Origin: Mrakia gelida | Taxonomy: Eukaryota; Basidiomycota; Tremellomycetes; Cystofilobasidiales; Mrakiaceae | Direction: 5' to 3' | DNA length: 64,000 nt | NCBI GenBank assembly: GCA_024345305.1 | Contig: BRON01000012.1 | Coordinates: forward strand, 496,001 to 560,000 | Shown: positions 7,866 to 46,040 of the stretch, piece after piece | Position numbering within the stretch: the stretch's first letter is position 1 | Layout of the letters: the number at the start of each line of letters is the position of its first letter | The notes under the pieces: generated by a model | What the model was told of the DNA's origin: nothing | Database searches by the model: none | What the model saw: only the letters and a program-made list of their open reading frames with translations | Program-made: the position numbers and the translations under genes

Positions 7866-8506
7866 GCCTCCAGCCGAGGGAACGCACGAGAGAGAGGGGT
7901 GGAGAGTGGAGGGCAAGGGGAGGAAGGAACAGAGGGGTCAAGGATGTCTGAGCCGGGAGGTTCGAGGGCGACCTGGAGCAAAAAAGGGATAGCTGGTCAG
8001 CTCAGAAGGTAGGAAGATGGCTCTAAATGTGAGAACTGACTTTGGTATCGTAGCGAGAAGTGCTGAGAAAGAGGGTGGATGGTCGTTGGGAGGAGCTCAA
8101 GCTCAACCTCCTCGACCTCCCATGAGAGCTCGATGCGACCGCAGCTCGTGTCTCCTCGATCTTGACCTTCTTGGAAGAGCGAAGGAGAAGAGATAGAGAG
8201 AACGCGGAAAGATGAAGAAAAGAAGGAGAGTTTACAGTTTCAGCCTCGCTGGGGAGCGTCCTTGCCAACGCGTCACCTCGTTGCTTGAGGGTCACTTCTT
8301 GTCTGCTTCGATCTAGGCTGCTAGATAACAAGTTAAAGAATCGAAGCCTGCCTTTATAGAATCTGAAAGACGAGAAAAACTTGGTCGCGAAGGAGAGGAC
8401 TATAGGGAAAAGAAAGCAACCAAACTCGAACGCGTCTGGCCGTCCGTCAACTGCATCTTTCCCCTTCCCCGACTCCTTCCTCCTTCCCCCTTTCTCGCAT
8501 GGAAGG
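7866..8506. promoter_or_regulatory. divergent promoter region, myotubularin / TB2-DP1 gene
   Basis: About 640 bases between two divergent start codons. On the minus strand there is an intron-like segment (GCTGAC near 8000, ending in CAG near 7971), so the myotubularin transcript probably has a spliced 5' leader. An open frame at 8023-8613 on the minus strand has no recognisable domain and overlaps the first exon of the opposite gene, so I treat it as non-coding. No clear TATA box was seen. Confidence 0.5.
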
Positions 8507-10932
8507 ATGCTCATCCTACACTCCTTCCTATGGTACTCAGTGTGAGCTCTTCTTCTCGGCCCCATATCTTCCTCCGCCCCCTCGTTGCTCAAGCTGAATC
8601 GATACCCTCCCACCGAACAACAGATTCTGCTTAAACGTCTGGGAGACTCACAAGTGCCTCAAACCTCCTCGAGCGGCTACAAGACATCGACCAGCTTGGA
8701 ACGTAGGGGATAGGAAGAGGCAGACTAAGGCTCAGCTCGCTCTATGGGTCGTCTGGGTGAGTACGAACGAAGAAGAAGGGAGGGAAGGGAGGAGAAGCAT
8801 GTTGAGCTCGAGCTGAACCTCCCCTTCAATCGTTTTCGCTCTCTCCAGATGCTGTACACCTTCGTCGAGTCTCTTGCCGACAGGACTGTCTCATACGTCG
8901 TCCCCTTTTACTCCGAGCTGAAGATGGGGATCTTGCTGTGGATGCTGGCTTCAAGAACCCTCGTTCGTTCAGCTCTCCCTCCCTCCTCCCTCCTCTCTCC
9001 TTCCTTCTCTTCTCGCCTTTGCTGACTCTCGGGGTACCACAGGGATCCAACTTCGTCTACACCAACTTCATCTCTCCCACCCTCACCCTCTACTCAACTC
9101 CTCTCGACCTCCTCTTCTCCCTCGTCTACGAACTCTCCGAGGCAATCATCTGGCTTCTCGCCTTCCCCGTTAACCGACTTCGAGCAGCTCTCGGCTTGTC
9201 CTCCTCGAGCGACGATACTCAAGACGGCGATGGAGCCGTTGAGGAAACGAGCCTTACTCCCAGGACAGTGGTCAGGAGAGCTAAGAAGGTCTACGAGGAG
9301 ATCGAGAGGTCGCGGATGATGGAGCGACCGGGCATGGTGAAGGCCAGGACGGCATCGGGAGCTGGAGCGAAGAAGGATCCGAGGCTTAGGGAGAGGAAGA
9401 TGGTTTTGGAGAAACAGGCTAGGGAGAAGGAGGAGAGGGAGCTGGAAGAGGAGGTGGAGGAGATGGCTAGGGTGGAGAGGGAGGATTCGTCGGCGAAGGT
9501 GGGATGGCAAGGAGCGTCGTCGTTGATGTTCCCTCGACCTCAGCCCAACCTCTCTCGAACCTCATCCTCATCCTCATCGTCATCGAGCTCGATTGGAGTT
9601 CCCTCTCGACCTTCCTCCATCGTCGAAACCCACACCACAACCACGGTCCGACGAGGTCCCTCAGCTTCGCTCCAACCCAACGCCGTCGCCTCTTCTGCCT
9701 CTTCCTCCTTCACTCGCCCAACCACGATCCGACCTTCCTCCAACCTCAATCCCTCCAAATCACAACCCATCGCCTCATCCTCTCGACTCCCTCTCGCCGA
9801 ACCCTCCTCGTCCTCCAACCTCTCCTCCAACGACAACGCGGTCGCCTCAACCTCGACCTCCTCGTCCAGCATCAAAGCCAAACCATCACCCTTCCTCCCC
9901 CCCACTTCCAGTGCCAACACGTCCAGCCCTTCTTCCTCTCAAAATGCACCACCTTCGCCCATACATCCAGTCCTCGCCGCCGCTCGCTCCTCCCTCCGAC
10001 CATCCACACCGCCCATCCAATCTCCCTCAACTCAACACGCGTCAGTCGTCGTCCCACCAACACCCATGCCCCCAGGCGCTTTCAACTTCCACACCACTTT
10101 CCAACCCCAGCAAAAGCCTCGCACTGCTTCCATCCCAACTGAAATCGCACAACCCTCACGACCACCATCACCTCCTCCAGCAGCCGTCTCCCCTCCTCGA
10201 AAACGCAAGATCACCTCCTCGCCTCCCAAACTCCGAGCCACACCAGCAAGGAAAGCCAAGTCCAAGGCCCTCCTGGAGATGTCGCACTCGCATGAGGAGG
10301 TTGTGGAGCTTGATGAGAGAGAGGAAACGGAGGATGAGGAGGGGGAGGCCAAGGGAGGAGGGAAAAAGAGGAGGAGGAGGAAGCTTGTGTTTGAGGAGAG
10401 TGAGGAGATTGATGAGGAGAGGGAGATTGGGGAGGAGATGATGGGTGGGAAGGGGAAGGGTAGAGCAGTGGAGAGTGAGACGGAGGAGAAGATGGGTGAA
10501 GAGGAAGCGAAGGAAGAAGGGGAGGATGAGCCCAAGGCCAACCCGAAACCCACGCGTCGGATCACCACCGCCAGCGCTCTCCCCTCCAAACGAACGACGA
10601 TTACCAGACCAGCCTCAGCCGCAGCCACTCGCAATCTTCCCAGCACCATCGCCGCCGCTCCCTCCCTTCGAAAACCCTCAGCTACCTCCTCAGTACCTCC
10701 AACCTCGACGCGCTCAACACGAGGAGTCCCTCAAGCTGCCGCTTCGTCTTCATCGTCCACCAGGACAAGGACGGCTTCTGGAGGTCCCGCTGCCGTCGCT
10801 GCTACTTCTGGGAGGAGGAGTCGAGTCAATTCTGGCGAGAATGTGGAGGAGAAGGACGAGGCGGTCGTTGTTGGGAGAGCAGGGACGACGAGAGGAAGAG
10901 GGAGAGGACGAGGAGGGAAGGTCGTTAGTTAG
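8507..10932 (+). CDS. TB2/DP1/HVA22 (Yop1/REEP-like) ER-shaping protein with long disordered tail
   Basis: Four exons fit in frame: 8507-8541, 8624-8756, 8849-8962 and 9043-10932, giving 723 residues. The first three exons and the start of the fourth encode a TB2/DP1/HVA22 domain with hydrophobic hairpins: WYSVFCLNVWETHKCLKP, then LALWVVWMLYTFVESLADRT, VVPFYSELKMGILLWML and FVYTNFISPTL. Family members insert as wedges in tubular ER and help curve it. After about residue 150 the protein is low complexity: Ser/Pro-rich blocks, an acidic Glu-rich stretch (near 10.3-10.5 kb) and an Arg/Gly-rich end (RGRGRGRGGKVVS). That tail is far longer than in Yop1 (about 180 residues) and has no recognised domain. 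The 35-nt first exon was chosen because it restores the conserved N-terminus. Confidence 0.85.
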
Positions 10933-35821: not shown

Positions 35822-38800
35822 ATGGCGACCTCTGCACCCACTCTCATCAAGTTCGATGAGAGGTACGTCCCCCTCTTGTTCCTCTGCACTCGATGTATAC
35901 AAGGAACCCTCGAAGCTGACCATCTTCCCTTCCATCCTCGCCCTCGCTCCTCCAACAACACTCCCTCCCTTCACCTCCTCCTCTCCCTCTCAGATTGTAC
36001 TTCACGACGTTCCCCTCCCCTCTTCCTTCAGCCTCCCACCTCAACAAATCCCCTACAACCCGCCGACTCCCCACTCCCGCTTCCTCCTCTGGTGGACCTA
36101 CGAGCAACGGTCGAGGCGGTGTTCAGACGTCCTCTCCTCCTCCTTCGAGCGGAGACGACGAGTCGGATGGACCCTCCTCTGCGACGGAAATGCTCACAAA
36201 GGGAAAAGGAAAGGAGAAGGAGAAGGAAGGAAGGGACCTTCACTGGTTGTGCATCGATAACGAGTTGATTTATCAGAGCTTCGCAAAGGATTTCGGACCG
36301 TGAGTAGCTTCAATCTCTGCTTGAGGAGGGAGGAGGGAGGGAAGGGAGGAGGGAGGGAAGCGAGAGGAGGTTCGGTCAACAAGACCCCCACGAGGGTTCG
36401 GATGGGTTTCTGACGTCTTTCTTTGGATTGCTTGTAGACTCAACATCGCGATGGTTTACAAGTTCTGCATCCGTGAGTTGTCCCTTTCGATCTGGACGAA
36501 GGAAGGGAGGGAAGGAGAGGGAGAGAGCTCAAGCTGATCACTCGACTTGTCTGGTTGTTTGGCTCGTTCGTTCGTTTCTCTGCCTCTTGCAGACATCCAC
36601 GACTTGCTTCAGGTTCGTCCGCACCCCCAGAAGGACTCGTCTTCGAAGGAGAGAGCATCGAGCTCACCATCTCTTGTCGCTTTCGAATCGGATGGTCTTG
36701 GGTTGAAACAGAAGGAAGGTTCGGACTCAGCCATCGTCCTCTACGCTTCCTCAGACCCCCAGAAGAAGGCCAACGCTGCTCTCCTTATGGCTCTCTACGT
36801 CGTTCGTCCTTCTTCTTCATCTTCATCTCGCGGCGGAGCTAGGCTGATCCCTCTTCGTCTCGATCCTGCAGCTCATCGTTCAGAGGAAGACTCCGGCAGA
36901 AGCGTTCTATCGTTCGTTCAACCTCCCCTCTCTCTCGGTCCAACTCTCGCCGAGTAGTCCAGTTCTTACTCGTCTGACCTCCTCGTCGTATCTTTTGGGC
37001 TCACAGCTATCGCCGATATCGAGTTCGTTCCGTTCCGAGACGCTGGGAGAGGTCGAGGAGACTTCAATCTGAGCATCCAGGTTCATCTGCGTCTCTTTCG
37101 TTCGTTCTTCGCGTGAGCTCAAACGAAGCTGACGAGCTTCCTTCTTTCCTGGTCTTCGTCTCAGGACTGCCTCTACGGGATCTGGAAGGCTCTGAAGGCT
37201 GGACTGCTAAATCTGGAGGACTTCGATATGGAGGAGTACTGCTTCTACGAACGAGTCGAGTGAGTCCCTCTTTCACGCGAGCTTCGCCTCTCGAACCGAC
37301 TAGCTAACCTCTTCTTCCCTTCCTCTTTCTAGGAACGGAGACTTCAACTGGGTTTCGAAAGACTTCATCGCCTTCGCATCGCCTCAGGGTAAGCCCAGCT
37401 CCTCTATTTTCTCGCTTGCGTCTCAAAAGGGCCAACTCGTCAAGCTCACTTCGCGCTTCTCTCTCCCTCGCAGACAATCACTACGTTCGCTCTCTCACCA
37501 ACCCCAAGGCTACCTCGAGCTTCCCGAACAAGAAACACACTCAAGCCTACGACAACGTGCTCAACTACTTCGCCGAGAACAAGGTCAAGCTCGTCGTTCG
37601 ACTCAACAACCCGCTGTACGACCAGAGAGACTTCCAGGCCAGAGGGATCGAGTTCAAGGATATGTTCTTCGAGGATGGGACGAACGTGAGTTCTCTTCCA
37701 CCTTGTCTCTCGTGTTGAGCTGGACTGACGGGTTTGAATGTTGTTTGCTTCGATCCAGCCTCCTCCTGAGATGGTGCGAGAGTTCTTATGCGACGCTCAG
37801 AGAGTCATCGCGGCCAAGGGTTCGTCGCGTCTCCTTCTTCGTGTCATATGCTCTCGAAGATCTTGACTGACCTCTCTTGTACCTTTTGCTATCAGGTGTG
37901 ATCGCTGTGAGTTCGATTCTTGACGCTCCTCGCGCTCGAAGAAGGTCTCGTCGCTGACGCGTCTCGATCCTCTTCTTCGCCTCAGATCCACTGCAAAGCC
38001 GGACTCGGAAGGACTGGGTGCCTCATCGCTGCATGGCTGATCTACAAGCACTCGTTCACGGCTCAGGAGGCTATCGGTTTCATGAGGATCTGTCGAGTGA
38101 GTCTTTCCTCGAGCTCGACGGCACGGACGCGACCTCGATCCCCACGACTGACCTTGCTTCGCTTTCTTCTCGTAGCCTGGAATGGTCGTGGGACCTCAAC
38201 AGCAGTACATCCTTCTGAACCACCTCGAATGGGTGAAGTGGGCCGCTGCCGACGAGGCTGTCGCTGCCTACAAGGCTTCCCTCGCTCTCACCTCCTCCCC
38301 ATCTCGAGCCATCACCCCTCCCAGCGACGACCGATACGGTCGCAACATCCCTTCCGCTCTTCCTCAAGTCACTCCCGCTCGTCACGTCGCCTCCTCGAAT
38401 GCTGCTGCGGCTCGAGCTGAGGCTCCTGGTCAGCCTCGAAAGGTTGGTCGCGTCCGCTCTTCTCCTCTTCGACCTCCGCTCAAAGCTGACCCTTCTTCTC
38501 GCCTACCTCTTTTAGACTCCTCTCGCCAAGCGAACAGCTGCCTCCTCGATCGATGAAGACGACGTCGATCCAGATCCACTCGGTCGAGCTCCTCCTCACA
38601 AGTACCAACGAGCCAAATCGGACGACTCAGACACCCTTCTCTCCCCGGGTCGAGGAGCCTCCTCGTCGGCGGCTCCAGCCCCCATCCTCGCCAGCCCAGC
38701 CAAGACTCGTAAACCCACCGCTTCTCGGATCGCCGTTTCGACGCGTCGAGGACCAGCAACGGAGTCGAAAGCCGTCAGTCGCACGCTCAAGATGGGGAAC

Positions 38801-44404: not shown

Positions 44405-46040
44405 ATGGGACAGGCAGGATCAGTAAACCAAGCGTTCTCGGGTAGGCATCTCTCCCTCTGGCTGCTCTCGAGCTTCAGCTCGTCGCTTCAACTGACACGC
44501 TCCTCCTCCCTCCCTCCCTTCCTTTCGCTGGTCGTAGAAATGGAGAGGTCTTCGAACTGTGAGCAACCCTTGCCCTGCTATCTATCCCATAGTCGCCCGC
44601 TAAGCTCCATCGTTTCTTTGCAGTCTCTGCTCAAGAGCTTCAACGTCTGAAGAAGCGGTTCATGAAGCTTGACCGGGACGGAAACGGGTCCATCGACAAG
44701 GAGGAGTTCTTGCAGATTCCTCAGATCGCAAACAACCCCTTAGCTTCAAGAATGATCGCTATCTTCGATGAGGAGTGAGTAAATCCTTCCTTTGTCCTTG
44801 CTGTGGCTTTGGAGGATGAAGGGAAGGGAGACGGAGCTGGGAAGGAGCAGGAGGAGGAGGAGCGGAGGTGCGAAGGGAGCGAGGTCGTGCGCTCGCTCGT
44901 CCTCCTTCTTGAGTTTGATACGAGCTGGGTTGAAGACTGGAGGGGATATGCTCGTGGTCTGGTGTCGAGAGGGAAGTCATCTGGGAGCCCTGCTGGACGG
45001 AGCTCACGAGCTGGAAAGGGGACGAGCTCACCCCCTTCCTTCCAGCGAGCTCGAAGCGAAGCTGTCATCTCGAGCCGCCTTGCTGACCTTCTATCTCTTT
45101 TCTATTCTCGTACCACAGTGGAGGAGGAACCGTCGACTTCCAGGAGTTCGTCGGTGGTCTGTCAGCGTTCTCGTCGAAAGGAGCTCGGGAGGAGAAGCTT
45201 CGTTGTTCGTCTCCATCCCTCTCCCTCCCTCCCTCCCTCTCCCCTTCCTTCCAACGACCCACCTTCCTCCGCCTCGTCTGACCTTCTGCTCTGGGTTTTC
45301 TCTTTGAATCGACGTGATCAGTTGCCTTCAAGGTGTACGACATGGATCGAGACGGGTTCATCTCGAATGGAGAGCTGTTCCTGGTGCTGAAGATGATGGT
45401 CGGGTCGAACTTGAAGGTGAGTCTTCTGCCGTCCCTCCTCCCCCTTTCCCTGTGCGAGAAACACGAGCTCGAAGCTGACCTTTTGCTGCTTCGGGTCTGG
45501 TAGGACCAACAACTGCAGCAGATCGTGGACAAGACGATCATGGAGGCGGATAAGGATGGGTGAGCTCGACCTTTCGTTTCAGCCCTCTTCTCGCTTCGAC
45601 ACGAGCTCACTGCTTCGTCTTTTTTTTTTGCTGTTCTGGGTGGATAGGGACGGCAAGATCAACTTCGAGGAGTTCACAGCTATGGTGGCTCATACCGTAA
45701 GTCCCTTCTTCAGCCTACTTCGTTCTCGACTCCTTCGCGTCCTTCGTTTCGCTGACACGTCGACCCTCCCTCCCTCTTTCTTTTCTACAGGACGTGCGTC
45801 CGCTCCTCATCTCTCCCTTCGAGTTCACTAGGCTCCTTTCTGACCTCTCCTTCTTCTCGCTTTCCTCGTTCCACAGCTGATGAAGCAAATGACCATCGAG
45901 AACCTGTTCTGTTCGTCCGGCCCTTTCCCTCCCTGCCCTCTTCCTTCTTCGTCCTCCCCCCCCGTCTCACGCTTCCTCTACCTACCGAAACTGACCACCC
46001 CTCTCCCCTCTTCCATCGTCCCTTCACCACTCCAACAGAG
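44405..46040 (+). CDS. CNB1: calcineurin regulatory subunit B, ten coding exons including a 3-nt exon
   Basis: Exons: 44405-44441, 44538-44558 (21 nt), 44624-44774, 45119-45204, 45322-45416, 45504-45559, 45648-45696, 45791-45793 (3 nt, GAC), 45877-45910 and 46039-46040. They sum to 534 nt, 177 residues plus stop. The N-terminus [11 protein letters not shown] carries the N-myristoylation Gly. EF-hand loops: [36 protein letters not shown] and [12 protein letters not shown], all complete. Linkers such as [21 protein letters not shown] and VAHTDLMKQMT are typical of CnB. The conserved D after VAHT is the 3-nt exon, and the TAG stop is split T|AG by the last intron. CnB binds calcineurin A and, with calmodulin, makes it Ca2+-responsive. 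Confidence 0.94.
45791..45793 (+). other. putative 3-nt microexon of calcineurin B
   Basis: GAC lies between a complete intron (GTAAGT, GCTGAC, CTACAG) and another (GTGCGT, CTGAC, CCACAG). It encodes the Asp of the conserved 'TD' after the fourth EF-hand. Skipping it would keep frame but lose this residue. Confidence 0.7.

Follow-up and report, generated by a model that had tools for sequence, protein, structure and literature searches.

A predicted 3-nt exon in the calcineurin B gene of Mrakia gelida

The window, by which we mean the whole 64,000-nt stretch of Mrakia gelida DNA analysed here, carries a calcineurin B gene (CNB1) on its forward strand. The gene was modelled by eye with 10 exons, 9 GT-AG introns and a product of 177 amino acids (Table 1). 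Pfam EF-hand_1 occurs in four stretches of the modelled protein, and residues 8-177 match PDB chain 6tz8_B, named calcineurin subunit B, with an E value of 4.5e-91. With four EF hands and a full-length match, the product is a calcineurin B regulatory subunit. An exon-by-exon protein search of the whole genome (34,857,517 bases in 25 contigs) gave four matches, all to CNB1, and found no second copy. Since intron 9 splits the stop codon, the protein ends in LF, as do most of the relatives listed.

Table 1. Position of CNB1 features and of short exons in the DNA analysed
Feature	Position	Strand	Basis or remark
CNB1 exon 1, start codon	44405..44441	+	gene model
CNB1 exon 2, 21 nt	44538..44558	+	gene model; residues also in M. 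frigida and Phaffia proteins
CNB1 exon 3	44624..44774	+	gene model
CNB1 exon 4	45119..45204	+	gene model
CNB1 exon 5	45322..45416	+	gene model
CNB1 exon 6	45504..45559	+	gene model
CNB1 exon 7, ending in residues MVAHT	45648..45696	+	gene model
CNB1 intron 7, 94 nt, GTAAGT...CTACAG	45697..45790	+	sequence and gene model
CNB1 exon 8, predicted 3-nt microexon GAC, Asp166	45791..45793	+	model, homologues, shuffles
CNB1 intron 8, 83 nt, GTGCGT...CCACAG	45794..45876	+	sequence and gene model
CNB1 exon 9, 11 residues and stop codon base 1	45877..45910	+	gene model
CNB1 intron 9, 128 nt, GTTCGT donor, stop codon split T/AG	45911..46038	+	gene model
CNB1 stop codon bases 2-3, start of exon 10	46039..46040	+	gene model
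11-nt microexon in CDC14-like phosphatase, AKGVIAIHCKAGLGRTG	37896..37906	+	strict scan, structure match
9-nt candidate exon	window 18916	-	strict scan
13-nt candidate exon	window 61960	-	strict scan
ERG6 predicted 3-nt microexon GAT	L022:8080-8082	+	phase 1; coding region 7877-9840
7-nt candidate exon, alcohol-dehydrogenase-like gene (by eye)	L017:3120-3126	+	spliced reading open
24-nt short exon	L018:5385	+	spliced fragment matches Peptidase_M24 in Pfam
30-nt short exon	L025:7897	-	spliced fragment matches K_trans in Pfam

Between exons 7 and 9, two introns stand back to back and only GAC separates CTACAG from GTGCGT. This arrangement, pointed out in the preliminary description, was confirmed: the introns, of 94 and 83 nt, are both in phase 0 and their signals are complete. 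Each contains a single CTGAC, located 36 nt (intron 7) or 34 nt (intron 8) before the 3′ end, and intron 8 has an additional CTCAT at 68. A CTNAC-type site is present in 8 of the 9 CNB1 introns, intron 2 being without one. GAC is thus flanked on each side by a complete spliceosomal intron with donor, branch-type site and acceptor. The term microexon is used here for internal coding exons of up to 30 nt.

Donors located upstream of branch-plus-acceptor signals were counted in 264 kb, made up of the window and twenty further 10-kb pieces, taken from ten contigs at two fixed positions each; the acceptors of the 180-nt stretch formed by the two introns and GAC were left out. GTGCGT was seen 10 times for 2.8 expected (3.6-fold) and GTAAGT 9 times for 2.1 expected (4.3-fold). 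GTGCGT is therefore an ordinary donor in the M. gelida genome, enriched about as much as GTAAGT. GTGAGT was seen 113 times for 17.4 expected and GTTCGT 69 times for 18.1. Donors with C at +4 (GTTCGT, GTGCGT and GTACGT) are generally enriched before acceptors, the excess of GTTCGT being second only to that of GTGAGT. Counting against a microexon, the intron 8 donor GACGTGCGT agrees with the U1 consensus (the general one was used) at 5 of 9 positions, whereas the donor of intron 7 agrees at 6. No match to U1 snRNA (Rfam RF00003) was obtained in the genome, nor in any of 14 control genomes; a 12-base U1-like word occurs at 3 places.

As a chance control, 200,000 dinucleotide-preserving shuffles were made of the 180-nt stretch, with its first 6 and last 45 bases fixed. 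YAG-GAY-GT appeared anywhere in 489 of them. The complete set of signals flanked some triplet in 16 shuffles and an Asp codon in none. Separately, an origin of the GAC layout by duplication of one intron was rejected, since introns 7 and 8 resemble each other no more than shuffled sequences do (a fraction of 0.414 of 500 shuffles scored at least as high). For introns 1 and 2 of ERG6, described below, this fraction was 0.008, in one of four comparisons.

GAC would supply the residue Asp166, a near-invariant Asp among the homologues listed. It occupies this position in 119 of the best 120 of 3823 matches to the first homologue search. When pooled with the second (best 120 of 3433) and counting every listed match, the 163 homologues comprise 160 with Asp, one with Asn and two with a gap. 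One gap belongs to a protein of Ixodes that carries the name calmodulin and fails to align at its C-terminus; apart from it, the best 120 of the second search held no further calcineurin B lacking the Asp. The other is a clean one-residue gap in the protein of Phaffia rhodozyma, otherwise collinear. Asp is also found in the five PDB chains with printed alignments (6tz8, 4il1, 6tz7, 5b8i and 7u0u), which we take to be fungal and mammalian. GAC thus encodes sequence needed for the family match.

Among the matches listed, the nearest calcineurin B proteins are those of Mrakia frigida and Phaffia rhodozyma, and both annotations deviate at this very place. The M. frigida protein (P0001) equals our model over residues 1-166, Asp included, and then continues with VRLYSSPLN, a tail that suggests intron 8 is being translated. 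The Phaffia protein aligns without gap to a model lacking the Asp (167 of 176 residues identical), which points to an intron 7 start and an intron 8 end at the same places in that species. The simplest account would be that the same 3-nt exon is present in both relatives and that both annotation pipelines failed there. Phaffia gene models are described as built with TopHat2 and other RNA-seq aids (PMC4393869, in the part drawn on here), so a real Asp-less transcript is possible in Phaffia. In a comparison of fungal genomes, as far as drawn on here, the number of introns per gene is reported to be highest in the Cystofilobasidiales, the order to which the sister genera Phaffia and Mrakia belong (PMC5103461).

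A strict scan of the 264 kb for an intron, an exon of 0-30 nt and a further intron gave 15 candidate short-exon arrangements at 14 places, and two of these are 3-nt exons. None appeared in 20 shuffles of the same 264 kb in 1-kb blocks, where intron-like signals fell to about 25 from 371 in the real DNA. As such shuffles destroy real introns, they test against random DNA and not against false signals beside real introns, and the local 180-nt shuffle is the closer control. By rough arithmetic, from 25.1 false introns in 528,000 strand positions and 371 real ends or starts, chance would give about 0.035 cases per exon length, to be compared with the 2 seen at 3 nt. The scan recovered 5 of the 9 CNB1 introns and 8 of the 9 ERG6 introns.

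The second 3-nt exon, GAT, is predicted in ERG6, modelled with 10 exons and whose protein matches sterol 24-C-methyltransferase. The protein reads VVNGYYDGATELYEYGW with GAT and VVNDYDGATELYEYGW without it. Among the ERG6 homologues listed (best 120 of 5237; scoring was limited to the 7999 candidates with most words in common, and every listed match was counted), YYD is present in 120 of 120 and the spacing restored by the microexon in 119. The exception is again Phaffia, in which three residues are missing exactly at the microexon site; no protein named M. frigida is among these 120. A like fault in Phaffia at the same kind of site in two unrelated genes is, at the level of annotated proteins, the strongest comparative evidence. 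It suggests that both microexons are probably common to Mrakia and Phaffia.

Longer short exons were also found. An 11-nt exon completes an ungapped 40-residue match to the solved CDC14 structure, in the active-site region of a CDC14-like phosphatase. The spliced fragment around the 7-nt candidate exon matched no Pfam family. Other candidates of the strict scan measure 9 to 27 nt overall.

Support for the proposed microexon comes from the modelled gene structure, the conservation of the protein, the splice signals and the way in which two relatives are annotated. We put at roughly 90% the probability that GAC is a real exon of calcineurin B, one codon long and probably constitutive, its splicing being deduced from genomic sequence. 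Retention of intron 7 or of intron 8 singly would shift the frame; with both retained, the length would still be divisible by three but a stop would be met. Skipping of GAC would preserve frame and C-terminus at the expense of the Asp residue. This last property bears on the two alternatives which survive best. In the first, GAC is alternatively spliced, giving a regulated pair of calcineurin B forms with and without Asp166. Both forms are in frame, the annotations of M. frigida and Phaffia show one each, and regulated microexons are reported in animals and Trichoderma, in the portions of the literature covered. The near-invariance of the Asp nevertheless implies that the skipped form is likely impaired, and no sign of regulation was noticed in the sequence; we consider such regulation unlikely.

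Slightly less likely still is a single 180-nt intron joining 45696 to 45877, with GAC intronic and the Asp lost in the Mrakia/Phaffia lineage. Such an intron keeps the reading frame, and the annotated Phaffia protein, from RNA-seq-aided models (PMC4393869, in the part drawn on here), has exactly the form expected. It would however require an accidental acceptor, Asp codon and usable donor in succession, a combination absent from all 200,000 local shuffles. The M. frigida annotation retains the Asp, and Phaffia ERG6 shows a similar fault at the second microexon. The weight of RNA-seq-aided models is also lessened by an aligner reported, in the passages drawn on here, to fail at a 1-nt microexon unless this was annotated (PMC8831610).

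That intron 8 is no intron and the gene reads on past GAC, as in the M. frigida annotation with its DVRLYSSPLN end, is very improbable and was rejected. The 11-residue end encoded just downstream would be discarded, although 118 of the 120 proteins listed in the first search have a similar C-terminus; the two without it are P0001 itself and the truncated P0105. Finally, the recursive-splice or resplicing point proposed in the preliminary description, in which resplicing after the removal of intron 7 would eliminate GAC completely, fits the AG-NNN-GT layout but was rejected as close to negligible: the first splice does not regenerate a 5′ splice site, there being neither GT nor GC at ACC/GAC in the junction ACC/GAC/GTGCGT, and no zero-length (AG/GT) exon occurred in the strict 264-kb scan. 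Resplicing would moreover still keep GAC, so only direct skipping from 45696 to 45877 loses it, and intermediates with one intron removed are equally expected for a true microexon and hence not diagnostic.

Short fungal introns are considered to permit recognition across the intron, a view also put forward for fission yeast. For the one-codon exon favoured here, the sequence presents two ordinary short introns three bases apart, each of which is presumably recognised across itself (intron definition), making exon-spanning recognition unneeded. At this distance there would hardly be room for U2AF/U2 on the acceptor of intron 7 together with U1 on the donor of intron 8. With sites too close for simultaneous assembly, introns 7 and 8 are presumably removed sequentially, and the sequence is compatible with either order. 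The resulting mRNA would join ACC-GAC-CTG, the role of the exon being to supply the near-invariant Asp. The same one-codon design appears to recur in ERG6 of M. gelida.

A one-codon exon was expected to be among the smallest known, which holds, although it is no record: exons of 3 nt and of 1 nt have already been described, and CNB1 GAC would add a basidiomycete case. A close parallel is the 1-nt exon of Fusarium CYP621A (Nelson and Syed 2026, PMC12940212, in the part drawn on here), which those authors regard as the first of its kind in a fungal gene. Both are ultra-short fungal exons missed by annotation, without which a conserved motif cannot be built. The CYP621A exon is however from an ascomycete, breaks the frame if skipped and is confirmed by RNA reads, whereas GAC has 3 nt, belongs to a basidiomycete, is frame-neutral and is predicted from genomic sequence. 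In plants, Arabidopsis among them, 1-nt exons are reported in APC11 and VPS55 (PMC4674806, PMC8831610, both in part); like GAC they are tiny, conserved and missed by annotation but, unlike it, verified by cDNA or RNA-seq. Animals have 3-nt micro-exons, for example in Drosophila homothorax (PMC7392893, in part). That micro-exon is likewise exactly one in-frame codon, but is alternatively spliced, whereas the fungal GAC is probably constitutive. Among basidiomycete genes that are likewise intron-dense and have very short exons, the minimum is given as 5 and 6 bp for yeast bglA genes (PMC9142197) and 6 bp for Phanerochaete P450 genes (PMC1184071). These exons are longer than GAC, and no 3-nt case appears in the portions of those reports drawn on. 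In the literature covered in part, no report was found of the CNB1 GAC exon or of a basidiomycete 3-nt exon.

The frequency of such exons was estimated from the 200 kb outside the window only, because the window was chosen for holding one. One 3-nt exon in 200 kb corresponds to about 174 per genome (Poisson range about 4 to 971), an order-of-magnitude guess. Exons of 3 nt probably recur in the Mrakia group and are missed by gene annotation. We give even odds to the broader proposal that Mrakia and Phaffia share a class of around a hundred constitutive one-codon exons per genome, located in core genes, spliced simply through intron definition, with no need of microexon regulators like those of animals, and consistently left out of annotations. 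If such a class exists, small spurious deletions are present in many published protein sequences of the order.

It is difficult to account for very short exons on the assumption that each exon is recognised as a unit. A yeast with one-codon exons in core genes would offer a tractable test of the minimum exon size under intron definition, and could also show the order in which introns leave. The odd deletions of Phaffia calcineurin B and ERG6 at such sites are a warning that annotated proteins of the order can miss residues. More than in the single exon, the interest lies in the indication that exons of one codon may be a recurrent feature of the order and a source of errors in its annotated proteins.
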